DNA of 64,000 nucleotides, taken from a virus. The stretch lies in the IMG/VR virus record IMGVR_UViG_3300046507_000773, positions 124,001-188,000 of that record. One strand, 5' to 3'. Positions 250 through 48,683 of this stretch are shown piece by piece. Each line of letters opens with the position of its first letter. Positions within the stretch are counted from its first letter, which is position 1. The notes beneath the pieces were generated by a model that saw only the letters and a program-made list of their open reading frames with translations, did no database searches and was not told where the DNA came from. The position numbers were made by a program, and so were the translations under genes.

Positions 250-290
250 AGCATAATGGCCCTCCCGTCCTGGGAGGGCTTTATGCCGTA
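250..290 (+). terminator. Hairpin terminator with TTTATGCCG tail
   Basis: GCCCTCCC and GGGAGGGC pair around a short loop. The hairpin is followed by TTTATGCCG, and the upstream GCATAA can pair with the TTATGC of the tail to extend the stem. Confidence 0.8.
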
Positions 291-1069: not shown

Positions 1070-1214
1070 GTCAATCTGTGGTTTTTTAACAGAAGACTAA
1101 CAAAGCTATGTACAGAATCGATGAGCGCAGTCTGAGCCCATCAAAGCAATTACCGCGATTGCTCTTGCAGTAATCAGACAAACCAACCTCTTTAACAACC
1201 TGAAGGAAAAAGTA

Positions 1215-1736
1215 ATGGCAACCGCAACCGAAAAAGACGTCCTGAAAGCTGAAGCGAAAAAGACCTTCGACGACCTGTCGCCGGAAGTCAAGAAGACCGT
1301 CGAAGCTGCCCGCGGCTACGTCACCATCTCGAACGAAGGCACCCCGGCCGTCGACCCCGCCACCTACGAGCGCCTGCTGGAACTGAACAACTCGAGCAAG
1401 GAAGCCTACATCGGCGTCCAGGAAGCCAATGCCGTCATCTACCCGGCACTGGCCTACGTGTTCGGCGAAAAGGGCATCCCGGTCATGGCCGAGAACGCTG
1501 ACGTCAAGCAGATCACCGGCGTCGTCCCGTGCTTCGGCAAGGACACGATCTCGGTCGGCCTGAAGCGTTCGTCGCCGTACACCCTGCGCGATTCCGAAGG
1601 CACCGTCACCGGCACCGGCACGAGCTTCGGCACCATCAGCGTCGACCACAAGATCTACGCCACCAAGACCCGCGGCGAACTGGCCAAGGTGAAGAACCTG
1701 ATCGGCGAACTCGGCGCAGCTAGCCTGTCGTCGTAA
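1215..1736 (+). CDS. Unrecognised 173-residue protein, probably abundant
   Basis: It starts at an ATG after GAAGGAAAAAGTA. Codon choice is strongly biased to C-ending codons (GTC, ATC, ACC, CTG), unlike the small hypothetical genes nearby and like the sheath and tubulin genes, which suggests high expression. The N-terminal 30 residues are charged and helical. The rest has many Gly/Thr-Val segments typical of beta-rich proteins. It could be a minor virion or head-decoration protein, but no homology is claimed. A long non-coding stretch with duplicated RNA structure follows it. Confidence 0.85.
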   Translation: MATATEKDVLKAEAKKTFDDLSPEVKKTVEAARGYVTISNEGTPAVDPATYERLLELNNSSKEAYIGVQEANAVIYPALAYVFGEKGIPVMAENADVKQITGVVPCFGKDTISVGLKRSSPYTLRDSEGTVTGTGTSFGTISVDHKIYATKTRGELAKVKNLIGELGAASLSS

Positions 1737-1749
1737 AGCATCGGCGCGC

Positions 1750-1977
1750 GTCGCCGTAGGGAGCTAGCTTCCCCTGTAGCTGCTTGACGTCCGTGCCTTT
1801 GTGCGAGAGTGACGTGGCTGCTCAAATCTTGCCCCCATCGTGGAGCGTGTAAAAGTTAGGAAGCCGTCCGATGGCCGGTTCCCGTAAAGGAAGTTAGCTT
1901 CTCCTGATATCGCCAGCGCTTAGCCTTTGTGCGAAGAAGCGCTTGCGGGGCAAAGACCACAAGGTCAAAGTTAGGGT
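1750..1977 (+). ncRNA. Tandemly duplicated structured RNA, about 128-base unit
   Basis: Two related copies lie one after the other, at about 1756-1862 and 1884-1977. Each has a hairpin around AGCTAGCTT or AGTTAGCTT, then a stem-loop whose loop contains GCCTTTGTGCGA (1795-1806 and 1923-1934), then AAAGTTAGG. The arms flanking the shared loop differ between copies but stay paired: ACGTC with GACGT in the first, AGCGCTT with AAGCGCT in the second. This is compensatory change. The region has no convincing ORF and ends in a terminator. It could be a small RNA or a long 5' leader of the gene at 2037. Confidence 0.55.
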
Positions 1978-2017
1978 CTGGGTGACAACGCCCGGACCCG
2001 CCCCTATTTTTTATGCC
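1974..2017 (+). terminator. Hairpin terminator with T-run and TTATGCCG tail
   Basis: GGGTCTGGG pairs with CCCGGACCC (one G-T pair) around an 8-base loop. CGCCCCTATTTTTTATGCCG follows. It closes the structured RNA region upstream of the gene at 2037. Confidence 0.8.
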
Positions 2018-2036: not shown

Positions 2037-2354
2037 ATGAGCGCTACCGAAGAAAATAAGAACGAAGATCAAACCATCCAAGTACCGGAGTCCTGGAAAG
2101 AAACCCTGGTCGAATACTACGGCCATCTGAAGCCTGTCACGGAAGTCGGCCAAGCTGTCCAGCGCAAAGACGGCAGCCAACTCCGCTCGGGCGCTGAAGC
2201 ATACCGCTACGCCATCGTCGTTCAAGTCGAGCCGTTGGTACTGGTCTCGCGCGGAACCGACATGCGCTGGTCGGCAACGGTGAAGATCGACGACTTCGCG
2301 GCATTCGGCAAGGTCAAGGACGACGTCCTGCAAGCCTGCATGCGGAGGCTGTAA
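2037..2354 (+). CDS. Unrecognised 105-residue protein, paralog of the gene at 3960
   Basis: The start at 2037 is chosen because TTTTAGGAATAAAGAC gives a Shine-Dalgarno at the right distance. An in-frame ATG at 2013 lies inside the terminator tail and is unlikely. The C-terminal half (RSGAEAYRYAIVVQVEPLVLVS) resembles residues about 68-90 of the protein at 3960 (RAGRNAYGQAVVISLDPFVLIS), so the two look like paralogs sharing a small beta-rich domain. Its stop overlaps the start of the next gene (TAATG), so the two are co-translated. Function unknown. Confidence 0.85.
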   Translation: MSATEENKNEDQTIQVPESWKETLVEYYGHLKPVTEVGQAVQRKDGSQLRSGAEAYRYAIVVQVEPLVLVSRGTDMRWSATVKIDDFAAFGKVKDDVLQACMRRL

Positions 2355-2758: not shown

Positions 2759-3919
2759 ATGTCCCTCGTCAAAATTAAAAAGATCCTGGGCGACGAGCTC
2801 GCTCAACACTTCGATTCGCACAACCACCTGTCGGGTACGCACAAATATTCCCGTCCAGTCATTCTGGACCTATCGATGAAAAAGCAAGAAGACGGCAATC
2901 CGTCTCTGGAGATCATCGATGAAAACCTGCAACTCATTTCGGCACACGCCAGTGAGAATGCGATCCTGATCTTGGACCGTAAGGCCATGAACAACAATCA
3001 GGTGTACAACGCCAACATCATCTACGTCGTCGTTCCCGATGTGGTGGGCGATGTGGTGGGCCTGCAAGAACATGAGGCCGGCTGGAAATTCCCGAAGATT
3101 CTGAAGCGCACTCCGAGCATCGAGGCAGCTTTGGAAGACATCGCGATGAATCTCAAACGTGTCACGCAAGAAGTCCCCGCCAAGGTTGACGATCTGGCCG
3201 AAGACGTGAGCAAGAAGGCGAACCTCTGGCTGCGCGATAGTGAGCGTCGTTTGTCGGGTATCCACCAAAGTGTCCTGGACAACATGTTCCATGATCCGCT
3301 CTGGACTTACATGGCAAGTCGTGAAATCCGCATCATTGGCGACCTCACGCATTCGGCCCATGGCCTGCCGCATTCCAGTGGCGCGATGTCCTGGTTCGTG
3401 AACCTGACCGGCAAGGACAAGCTGTTCACCACCAAGTACGTGAGCCATGCCAAGTATCACTTCCTGGCAATGGCGGGTATTTTGCAGCTGACGGGTATCT
3501 TGCTTAAGAACGGCTACGCGATCGAGAAAAAACGTTCGGACTACGTGATCGGCAAAGAGATTTACATGTACACCAAGGATCGTCATGGTCGTTACAACAC
3601 CGTTTCATTGCCGGATGCCTACGACGAGATCATCATCATGCCGATTTCGATGTGGGACAAAGCGAAGGACGAGGTGAAGATCTCGCCGGTTTATCTCGTG
3701 GCTGAAACGGAACAGCATGCTGCAGTTATTCACACACTGCAAACTGAACACCAGGACGTCTTCGTCCGCTTCGTGGAAAACTACAACCAGGCGATGGAGC
3801 ACATCAAGACGTTCGAGCAGTTGGCCGATGTGAGGGACACGTTCCCGGTGCAAGCTATTCGTCTGCATGGTGCCAAGAAGATTCATCTCTTCCTGGACCT
3901 CATGGACGACGCCCATTAA
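2759..3919 (+). CDS. Unrecognised 386-residue protein
   Basis: The start at 2759 follows CACAGAAGGTTTTTCCCC. An earlier in-frame ATG at 2705 lies in the terminator stem. The protein is mostly soluble and mixed. Residues about 100-165 are rich in charged residues and may form helices (EAALEDIAMNLKRVTQEV). A short hydrophobic stretch (FLAMAGILQLTGILL) lies near residue 240. There are no catalytic motifs I recognise. A hairpin directly after the stop separates it from the next gene. Confidence 0.85.
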   Translation: MSLVKIKKILGDELAQHFDSHNHLSGTHKYSRPVILDLSMKKQEDGNPSLEIIDENLQLISAHASENAILILDRKAMNNNQVYNANIIYVVVPDVVGDVVGLQEHEAGWKFPKILKRTPSIEAALEDIAMNLKRVTQEVPAKVDDLAEDVSKKANLWLRDSERRLSGIHQSVLDNMFHDPLWTYMASREIRIIGDLTHSAHGLPHSSGAMSWFVNLTGKDKLFTTKYVSHAKYHFLAMAGILQLTGILLKNGYAIEKKRSDYVIGKEIYMYTKDRHGRYNTVSLPDAYDEIIIMPISMWDKAKDEVKISPVYLVAETEQHAAVIHTLQTEHQDVFVRFVENYNQAMEHIKTFEQLADVRDTFPVQAIRLHGAKKIHLFLDLMDDAH

Positions 3920-3959: not shown

Positions 3960-4358
3960 ATGAATAAAGACAAACCGATGGTGCTCATGGAAATGGGCAC
4001 AGTCCAAACGATCGCTGACTTCTTCAAAAGCGGGGAAGCTTCGGATGAGGTAATCAAAGCCTTCGAGAAGTTGGAATCGAACCTCAACCACACCAAACGC
4101 GTCTTGGCTCGTGAAGAGGAAATTATCGTGGGCGATATTGTCGAACCCAAACCGGGTTGGAATACGCTCCGGGCCGGTCGCAATGCTTACGGACAAGCCG
4201 TCGTCATTTCACTTGATCCATTTGTTTTGATTTCCCAGGACGGGGAATCCGTTTGGACGGGCGGGAATGAACCGAAGAACTTTAACATGGTAGGGACAGT
4301 GAACGAGCAGAAACTCAAAACGCTGACCTTCATCGTCGAAACAAGGAAGAAAGCATGA
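3960..4358 (+). CDS. Unrecognised 132-residue protein, paralog of the gene at 2037
   Basis: The ATG at 3960 follows a hairpin; ATG 3978 is an alternative start. The N-terminal half is helical (QTIADFFKSGEASDEVIKAF). The C-terminal half matches the protein at 2037 in the pattern R-G-AY-AVV-PFVLIS-DG-W. The last codon overlaps the DHFR gene (ATGA), so the two are probably translationally coupled. Function unknown. Confidence 0.85.
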   Translation: MNKDKPMVLMEMGTVQTIADFFKSGEASDEVIKAFEKLESNLNHTKRVLAREEEIIVGDIVEPKPGWNTLRAGRNAYGQAVVISLDPFVLISQDGESVWTGGNEPKNFNMVGTVNEQKLKTLTFIVETRKKA

Positions 4359-5275
4359 CATTGCCGATTCACTTGATACTCGCTGCAACGCCGCGTGGCG
4401 AGATCGGATTTCAGAACACCATCCCCTGGAAGCTTAAAGGCGATCTGAAGCGTTTTAAAGACCTGACCATGGACAACTTCGTCCTGATGGGCAGGAAGAC
4501 CGTAGAGAGCCTTACAGCGCCTCTGAAGGGGCGTATCGTTGTGGCGATCTCTTCCACATGGTACGCTGACATGGAAGCAGGCAAGAATACGCCGCCAGGA
4601 GTCGATCTCATCTATTCGTCGCTGCAGCACGCACTCGATTCCCTCAACTGTTTCAAGTGTTCTGCTACACCGAAGAAGATCTTCATCGCCGGCGGCGTTC
4701 GTTTGTACGAAGAAGCATGGAACCTCGCTTCGCATCTGCACCTGTCGCTGGTATTCGAAGATCCGAAAGATGGCGCCTACGATGCAGAGCTGCCGCAGCT
4801 GAGCACGTCAGGCTTCGAACTGATCAAGGAACCGGTTGCCGTCATGAAGGAAGGGTCGGACAAGTACAGCTACATCTACTACGAAGCGGCACGCCATGTA
4901 CCTGGCGAAATCCGACGACCTTACCTGGGTACGGAAGCCACCATCTTCGAAGTCATGGGCGAACTCGTGGGCCTTACCAATGAAGAACTCATGATCGAGC
5001 AAAACAAAAGCCAGGAAGCCATGAACAACCTGGCCTTTACTGCACGGCAGCGCCTGACAGCTTCTGCTCTCGAAGAACTTCTGGCCACAGAAAACGATCC
5101 CAATCAGGATTACTTCAACATCTGGACTGGACAAGGCAAACCGCAACCGCCAGGAATCCAGGATCTGAGCGTCTATGCTCACCACTTCCTGGGTGACAAA
5201 GCAAAGCTCCTGGAAAAAGACGAACGCCGCGATGTTCGTTATCCGCCCAAGGACAAGATCGAAGGTGATAAATGA
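4355..5275 (+). CDS. Dihydrofolate reductase with a C-terminal extension
   Basis: Residues 1 to about 175 carry the DHFR fold: HLILAATPRGEIGF, then IPWKLKGDLKRFKDLT, then the MGRKTVESL nucleotide-binding segment, and IFIAGGVRLYEEAW with the conserved GG. DHFR reduces dihydrofolate with NADPH and supplies tetrahydrofolate for dTMP synthesis. Normal DHFR is about 160-190 residues, but this protein has 306. The extra 130 residues are mostly helical and polar with no known domain. No thymidylate synthase gene is visible in the window. It overlaps both neighbours by ATGA, so it belongs to an operon with 3960 and 5272. Confidence 0.9.
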   Translation: MTLPIHLILAATPRGEIGFQNTIPWKLKGDLKRFKDLTMDNFVLMGRKTVESLTAPLKGRIVVAISSTWYADMEAGKNTPPGVDLIYSSLQHALDSLNCFKCSATPKKIFIAGGVRLYEEAWNLASHLHLSLVFEDPKDGAYDAELPQLSTSGFELIKEPVAVMKEGSDKYSYIYYEAARHVPGEIRRPYLGTEATIFEVMGELVGLTNEELMIEQNKSQEAMNNLAFTARQRLTASALEELLATENDPNQDYFNIWTGQGKPQPPGIQDLSVYAHHFLGDKAKLLEKDERRDVRYPPKDKIEGDK

Positions 5276-47198: not shown

Positions 47199-48683
47199 AT
47201 GTTTCAAGCATCGAACATCCGCGTCGCCCGTTTCCTGATTTACGAAACCCTCGGCTACGACAACATGTACCGCCGCGCATACAAGACCACGGCTGATGGC
47301 GTTGCCTTCGATACCCTGGCTGAGCGCATCTCGGCCCATGACCGTATTACGACCGACACTGTCGTCGGCCTGACCAACGGCTTCCTGGCACCGGACATCA
47401 ATACCGAATCGCCCAATCCGATCTTCATCCCGGACGGCTGGGGCGCCAAGCGTTGCCGCTTCTTGCTGGAACTGGAATACGACTTCGGCGGCCTCGGCTC
47501 GAAGATCCGTGAAGCCTTCATGGGCTGGACCGATCACTACGGTTTGTCGCTGCAAAGCCAAGCGATCGACCGCGACATGGTGTTCCACCTGAACTCGGTG
47601 TCGCACATGAAGATCCAGGAAATCCCGACGCTCAACGGCATCGAGAAGCACTACAGCGTCCTGGACACGTCGCACATCCTCGCAGCCCAGCAACATCACG
47701 GCCAAAGCGGCGCCTTCAATAACGAGAAGCTGTTCCGCATGCGTCCGGACGATCTGTTCGCCACGATGCAGCTGTCGCACCTGGACACTGGCGGCACCTA
47801 CGACGACCGTACCCGGATCGGCACTGGCGCCCAAAAGGCATCGCGCTCGTCGAACATCACGACGAACTACATGACGAAGATCCTGGACTCGTACCTGACG
47901 GCCGCCCGCACCCAGGGTGACCTCGGCCAAGACGCCCCGGACATCCTGGAATCGGCACGCAACCGTTCGTACCAGACCAGCTCGGCTTCGTCCGATCCAT
48001 TCCTGCGCGAGATCTCCCGCCTGGAAAACGGTGGCAACTACATCCAGGACCACTTCACGTACGCGACGCTCTTGTCGATCGATCCGAACGCTGACAACAT
48101 GGCCGAAGTGCAGGTGCTGCCGACCATGATGCGTGACAGCTGGGCAGGCAACACCTCGGAAGAAACCTGGGGTGGCCGCGACATCTACGCACAGTTCGCC
48201 ACCATCCTGGCCCAGTCGGTCCCGTCGATCCTGATGGAAACCGGCCTGCAAGCGGTGAAGTTCCAGTCGACGAATCGCAAGATCGGCATGCAGATCGAAA
48301 CCACCATCCAGGGCATCAAGTCCTTCAGCGAAGTGTTCTCCCTGGCGCAACAGGGCAACACTTTCATCGAGCGGGTCAACCGCGAGATCATGCTGGACCT
48401 GTCCTTCAACGGACAGATGGACTACGGCCTCATCATGGAAATGTCGATCCACGGTGAATGCATCGTCGAGCTTTCGCTGAATGGCGACAACAACCTGCAC
48501 CGGTTCGTTGCTCCGCTGTTTGCCGATGCGTTCTTCAGCCCGATCGTCACCAGCGATCAACAGCGCAGCCACATGAACGCGGAACACTTCGGTCAATTGG
48601 CCGGACGTCTCGCAGAAGTCAATCTCCTGGGCAGCGCTACGAGCACCAACATCCAGGTCGGCGCCGGCGGCATGGCGTTCTAA
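47199..48683 (+). CDS. Unrecognised 494-residue protein, phiKZ gp69 position
   Basis: It begins directly after the previous stop with AAAAAGGAGCTTTTAA. Codon bias is very high, unlike the polymerase genes on either side, so the product is likely abundant. The protein is mixed, with strands in the N-terminal third and helices near 380-430 (EIMLDLSFNGQMDYGLIMEM). It ends in Gly/Ala/Thr. Either a virion protein or an abundant nucleus-associated protein would fit. Confidence 0.8.
   Translation: MFQASNIRVARFLIYETLGYDNMYRRAYKTTADGVAFDTLAERISAHDRITTDTVVGLTNGFLAPDINTESPNPIFIPDGWGAKRCRFLLELEYDFGGLGSKIREAFMGWTDHYGLSLQSQAIDRDMVFHLNSVSHMKIQEIPTLNGIEKHYSVLDTSHILAAQQHHGQSGAFNNEKLFRMRPDDLFATMQLSHLDTGGTYDDRTRIGTGAQKASRSSNITTNYMTKILDSYLTAARTQGDLGQDAPDILESARNRSYQTSSASSDPFLREISRLENGGNYIQDHFTYATLLSIDPNADNMAEVQVLPTMMRDSWAGNTSEETWGGRDIYAQFATILAQSVPSILMETGLQAVKFQSTNRKIGMQIETTIQGIKSFSEVFSLAQQGNTFIERVNREIMLDLSFNGQMDYGLIMEMSIHGECIVELSLNGDNNLHRFVAPLFADAFFSPIVTSDQQRSHMNAEHFGQLAGRLAEVNLLGSATSTNIQVGAGGMAF

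Follow-up and report, generated by a model that had tools for sequence, protein, structure and literature searches.

Two tandem copies of a structured RNA unit fill a 300-nt gene-free gap (1737-2036) in the genome of a jumbo phage, and the stems of the two copies have changed in ways that keep them paired. The gap lies between genes 1215-1736 and 2037-2354 of a 64,000-nt stretch of DNA (the window, which spans 124001-188000 in a virus record of 226,810 bp), and the RNA is most simply read as the 3' UTR of the first of these genes. On its predicted proteins, the source phage is a phiKZ-like, nucleus-forming jumbo phage; the record has genes matching the nuclear shell protein and the tubulin PhuZ, and for the tail sheath and the major capsid protein the nearest annotated phage is Burkholderia phage FLC9, at 49-50% identity. 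The upstream gene sits two genes after the S80 head protease. On the other side of the gap, two small neighbouring proteins (window 2037-2351 and 3960-4355) both match PHROG 17597, of unknown function, which suggests a local gene duplication, and a 306-aa protein at window 4355-5275 has a dihydrofolate reductase domain in its first half, with no match for the remainder.

The two copies are offset from each other by 128 nt. Their similarity can be measured against shuffled sequence, and none of 2000 shuffles scored as high in either local alignment (159, shuffle mean 78, sd 13.6) or global alignment (178, shuffles 93, sd 14.7). The sequence-only reading of this DNA, which had described two copies of a roughly 128-base unit in a gene-free gap, is thus borne out on this point. 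Identity between the copies is distributed in blocks: CCGUA..AGGRAGYUAGCUUCYCCUG, GCCUUUGUGCGA, CAAA and AAAGUUAGG are retained, and the intervening stretches have diverged. The loop GCCTTTGTGCGA is the same in both copies, with 12/12 bases identical, as are 9/9 bases at AAAGUUAGG. Elsewhere in the 226,810-bp record this loop is absent, even when one mismatch is allowed, and few antisense matches of 10 bases to the loop were seen in the phage genome outside the element itself.

Both copies can be folded into the same three stems, P1, P2 and P3 (Table 1), and two-sided changes are found in each of them. In the upper stem of P2, ACGUC/GACGU of copy 1 (1787-1791 with 1811-1815) aligns in the same register over AGCGC/GCGCU of copy 2 (1915-1919 with 1939-1943), with three two-sided changes, and the GC/GC pairs of the lower stem are kept. 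P3 has two such changes, being GGAA/UUCC in copy 1 and GGGU/ACCC in copy 2, and P1 has one, giving six in all with pairing kept, a covariation that is limited in that it rests on two sequences. A joint stem of at least 5 Watson-Crick pairs in the same register beside the loop is found in 4.5e-5 of shuffles. When the copy pair is folded with RNAalifold, the consensus reaches -23.25 kcal/mol compared with a column-shuffle mean of -9.9 (z -4.4, 0/1000), and the z against column shuffles is -4.5 for P2 only and -4.2 for the 3' part. Two further proposals of the earlier reading, namely that the loop stays identical while its flanking arms differ yet pair, and that structure is kept by paired changes in the arms, agree with these results.

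Table 1. Features of the tandem RNA and its surroundings in the window, followed by the capsid 3' UTRs discussed in the text
Feature	Position	Strand	Details
Candidate late promoter (TATG) of gene 1215-1736	1107-1110	+	phiKZ consensus, inferred
Upstream gene	1215-1736	+	173 aa; PHROG 9746 (unknown function); GC3 rank 6/226
P0	1742-1756	+	5-bp hairpin CGGCG-CGCGU-CGCCG just past the stop codon; from sequence, present in computed fold
RNA unit, copy 1	1756-1882	+	127 nt
P1, copy 1	1758-1775	+	AGGG/CCCU around AGCUAGCUUC, near-palindromic
P2, copy 1	1782-1818	+	lower stem GC/GC, internal loop, upper stem ACGUC/GACGU
Invariant loop GCCUUUGUGCGA, copy 1	1795-1806	+	
CAAA, copy 1	1823-1826	+	possible pseudoknot partner of UUUG in P2 loop; p 0.04, suggestive
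AAAGUUAG, copy 1	1852-1859	+	invariant; possible partner of YUAGCUU (1764-1770); p 0.02, suggestive
P3, copy 1	1859-1882	+	
RNA unit, copy 2	1884-1999	+	116 nt
P1, copy 2	1888-1905	+	AGGA/UCCU around AGUUAGCUUC
P2, copy 2	1912-1946	+	lower stem GC/GC, upper stem AGCGCUU/AAGCGCU
Invariant loop GCCUUUGUGCGA, copy 2	1923-1934	+	
Putative terminator, copy 2	1947-2012	+	outer stem GGGGC/GCCCC around a small hairpin and P3, then U6 (2007-2012); from fold and sequence
CAAA, copy 2	1951-1954	+	CAAAG able to pair with loop CUUUG
AAAGUUAG, copy 2	1967-1974	+	
P3, copy 2	1974-1999		
Candidate late promoter (TATG) of gene 2037-2354	2012-2015	+	overlaps the terminator end; inferred
Capsid 3' UTR with TTTGGGGCT-like block, G000 (whole phage record)	48475-48630 (L071 8475-8630)		
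Capsid 3' UTR with TTTGGGGCT-like block, L129	5143-5320		
Capsid 3' UTR with TTTGGGGCT-like block, L131	5173-5310		
Capsid 3' UTR with TTTGGGGCT-like block, L127	5227-5310		
Capsid 3' UTR with TTTGGGGCT-like block, FLC9 (L140)	3589-3720		

Folded on their own, the copies differ. Copy 2 alone is very stable (z -4.5). Copy 1 alone (1754-1882) has no unusual stability (z +0.7), and its minimum-energy fold pairs the arms in another register, with an energy about 5 kcal/mol below that of the consensus fold. Beyond the stems, two contacts are possible in both copies, UUUG with CAAA and YUAGCUU with AAAGUUAG, and both are weakly significant (p values in Table 1).

The limits of the transcript can be approached through promoter and terminator motifs. 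In phiKZ, the late-promoter consensus consists of little beyond TATG, with the start at the G (-3 TATG +1) (PMC7618050). On the + strand, TATG occurs at 282, 455, 1107, 2012 and 2665 within the first 5000 bases of the window, and hence nowhere between 1107 and 2012, the motif being one carried over from phiKZ. Nor was a sigma-70-like promoter called in front of the element, on inferred promoters that may not be those of this phage. Because no promoter motif lies between 1107 and 2012, the RNA is read as the 3' UTR of gene 1215-1736, and a small RNA, being the end of that mRNA, would therefore need processing. At the other end, termination near 2012 is plausible. The U-tract (2007-2012) begins 7 nt past P3 and is close to a stem only if the outer GGGGC/GCCCC stem forms, and a simple terminator scan does not list this structure. 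The sequence-only reading had seen a strong terminator at the end of the unit, which suggested a small RNA that is expressed, not a leader; a terminator-like structure running to about 2012 stands in favour of both, but the strength of the terminator depends on that outer stem, and a promoter belonging to the RNA itself (TATG or sigma-70-like) was not found.

The element lies between a stop codon and a terminator, as do phage noncoding RNAs derived from 3' UTRs. The distance from the stop codon to the terminator hairpin is about 237 nt here; among 37 genes that end in hairpin+TTATG the median is 12 nt, the gene calls behind this comparison coming from our own crude script. Across this genome, stop-to-terminator length shows no correlation with GC3. 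The record also contains about 47 GC-rich hairpins (27 on the + strand, 20 on the - strand) directly before a TTTATG[C/A][C/T]G-like sequence, for example at window 258-290 and 1974-2015, and controls gave 2 (reversed) and 3 (complemented). These arrays, which also occur in several relatives, look like terminators fused to the TATG of a phiKZ-type late promoter. Strong codon bias is usual in highly expressed genes. The codons of gene 1215-1736 are strongly biased (GC3 0.85), and it is therefore probably highly expressed; those of the major capsid gene of the same phage are likewise very biased.

Eight related records yielded homologs of gene 1215-1736, and the tandem RNA is absent from the 3' UTR of the syntenic gene in 8/8 of these relatives. 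Seven of them (FLC9 and six others) have a short UTR with one hairpin terminator after the stop codon, whereas the 330 bases that follow the stop codon in Erwinia phage pEa_SNUABM_54 (L134) are without such a clear end. A short terminator is also present at the syntenic place in SURPRISE13. Since seven of the eight relatives have the short terminator, the element would be dispensable in the clade. Searches beyond the syntenic position gave a similar picture. Rfam 15 has no match in the window at the gathering threshold and none for 1700-2060 at E values up to 10. A covariance model built from the two copies, R1, gave nothing convincing on the related phage records or the rest of the phage's own genome, with weak matches only. 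Its two best matches, both in phage LucasX, were taken as chance: one lies mostly at the edge of or inside an opposite-strand gene, and the other has at its centre a GC-rich hairpin (loop TTTGT) that lies between LUCX_149 and LUCX_150. Pattern scans of IMG/VR with the conserved blocks returned 0 hits or chance-like matches in unrelated contigs, a pattern scan of GTDB genomes returned 0, and blastn against phages and plasmids yielded nothing meaningful. Within the IMG/VR, GTDB, phage and plasmid collections, which possibly do not cover the closest records, the element is so far known from this phage only, and it appears to be a new sequence family within a known kind.

Several other explanations must be weighed against a 3' UTR. 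A terminator-like defined end, a compact structure and a gap without genes would also suit an independent small RNA gene transcribed from its own promoter, as the earlier reading held, but the lack of a sigma-70-like site in front and of a TATG from 1107 to 2012 (by a promoter set inferred from phiKZ) argues against it, as does the GC-richness of the region, and we consider such a gene unlikely. Alternatively, the copies could be the tandem sensor domains of a cis-acting switch that governs the terminator at 2007, and hence whether transcription continues past gene 1215-1736 into 2037 and further. The two copies do stand immediately upstream of the terminator, P3 of copy 2 forms part of it, and alternative folds exist in which P1 of copy 1 pairs with P1 of copy 2. 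However, the late-promoter-like TATG at 2012-2015 follows right after, so that the downstream genes need no read-through, and Rfam finds no known riboswitch aptamer consensus in 1700-2060 even at E 10; a switch is improbable on these grounds.

The same pairing between the copies raises the possibility of an RNA-RNA assembly element, in which the near-palindromic P1 segments of different copies or molecules pair and the units assemble into a multimer or form a protein scaffold. P1 of copy 1 can form 14 contiguous pairs with P1 of copy 2 at -22.7 kcal/mol, far better than the single hairpins (-5.1 and -3.2), self-pairing of P1 between molecules reaches -26.6 and -18.8 kcal/mol, and the whole-gap fold contains the long-range P1-P1 duplex. 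Pairing with a copy of itself is open to any hairpin sequence, however, and the two-sided change in P1 suits a local hairpin, two sequences precluding a covariation test; we find this explanation very doubtful. Finally, the element could be a decayed duplication of a terminator region that has no function of its own, the shared blocks being those that have not yet drifted. Its occurrence in a single phage and the ordinary stability of copy 1 fit such decay, but the identity is concentrated in blocks such as the loop and AAAGUUAGG, which are intact, while the stem arms have changed in matching pairs, and we leave decay a small chance.

Comparison with known systems can help to place the RNA. 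Tandem riboswitches such as the glycine riboswitch sit in 5' leaders. The tandem RNA resembles the glycine riboswitch in having two tandem structured units beside a terminator; it differs in following the upstream gene, and the next gene (2037-2354) has its own TATG, downstream of the element. The put-type antiterminator RNA of HK022 has two hairpins that closely follow an early promoter, a placement that the 3'-end position of the tandem RNA does not fit. ROOL and GOLLD (PMC12286853) are likewise structured phage-encoded noncoding RNAs of unknown function, theirs with loop-loop contacts between molecules. Unlike the tandem RNA, they are several hundred nt long, often lie near tRNA islands and have Rfam models, neither of which the tandem RNA matches; a search for tRNA and tmRNA genes found none within the window. 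By analogy, the tandem RNA may work most like the 3'-UTR-derived phage RNAs. In phiKZ, the 3' UTR of PHIKZ298 gives rise to an abundant RNA of about 100 nt, for which the authors assume processing and which has two stem-loops, the second possibly a terminator (Gerovac et al. 2021, PMC8545117). Both are structured RNAs of nucleus-forming jumbo phages located between a stop codon and a terminator, with a last hairpin that is the probable terminator and no mapped start site of their own. The PHIKZ298 RNA differs in its length of about 100 nt, its two stem-loops and the fact that no duplication is described for it, and the likeness is one of description, the tandem RNA being known from its sequence alone.

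A long structured 3' UTR also precedes the terminator of the major-capsid mRNA in this phage (z -6.4), and Rfam gave no match for it; capsid mRNAs of several relatives have such 3' UTRs too. The capsid 3' UTRs of five related phages (capsid proteins sharing 40-50% identity with that of this phage) contain a TTTGGGGCT-like block a few bases upstream of the terminator (Table 1), in most cases with large hairpins ahead of it. Scanning IMG/VR for exact copies of the capsid 3'-UTR block gave 0 hits. The order of parts in G000 48475-48590 (hairpin, UUUG-loop hairpin, CAAAG, third hairpin, GAAAGCU, terminator) resembles that of the tandem RNA. The capsid 3' UTRs of G000, L129, L131 and FLC9 are, like the tandem RNA, long and structured, belong to a head gene and have a final hairpin followed by TTTATGCCG, and that of this phage shares a UUUG loop followed by CAAAG. 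In contrast to the tandem RNA, they carry the TTTGGGGCT-like block, and R1 is blind to them; the capsid 3' UTR was rejected as a member of the tandem-RNA family, its best R1 score being below zero.

Because of the biased codons, the long structured 3' UTRs of both this gene and the capsid gene, and the precedent of the phiKZ 3'-UTR RNA, we propose, with about an even chance of being right, that the element is a tandem-duplicated structured 3'-UTR RNA that caps the late mRNA of gene 1215-1736, is protective and is possibly processed. The duplication, the paired changes, the position and the absence from the relatives compared are what the sequences show, and the transcript limits, protection, processing and loop contacts of this proposal are what we infer. 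Transcription would start at the TATG near 1107, run through gene 1215-1736, continue through the two hairpin-rich units (P1, P2 with its invariant 12-nt loop, and P3) and stop at the U-tract. Each unit would fold compactly, perhaps via UUUG/CAAA, YUAGCUU/AAAGUUAG or P1-P1 pairing between copies. The folded tail would then shield the mRNA from 3'-to-5' decay and might be cleaved off to give a stable small RNA, about 130-270 nt long, and the invariant loops would be contact sites for protein or RNA.

A broader idea, which we put forward as a long shot, is that jumbo nucleus-forming phages place compact structured 3'-UTR modules on their abundant head-protein mRNAs for a phage-specific step, with the tandem RNA as a duplicated member. 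Examples would be getting the mRNA out of the phage nucleus, shielding it from host nucleases or its use on the phage-modified ribosome. Few noncoding RNAs are known from nucleus-forming phages. The tandem RNA on a head-region gene, together with the structured capsid 3' UTRs of relatives, may offer concrete candidates for roles in mRNA stability, in export and as small RNAs.
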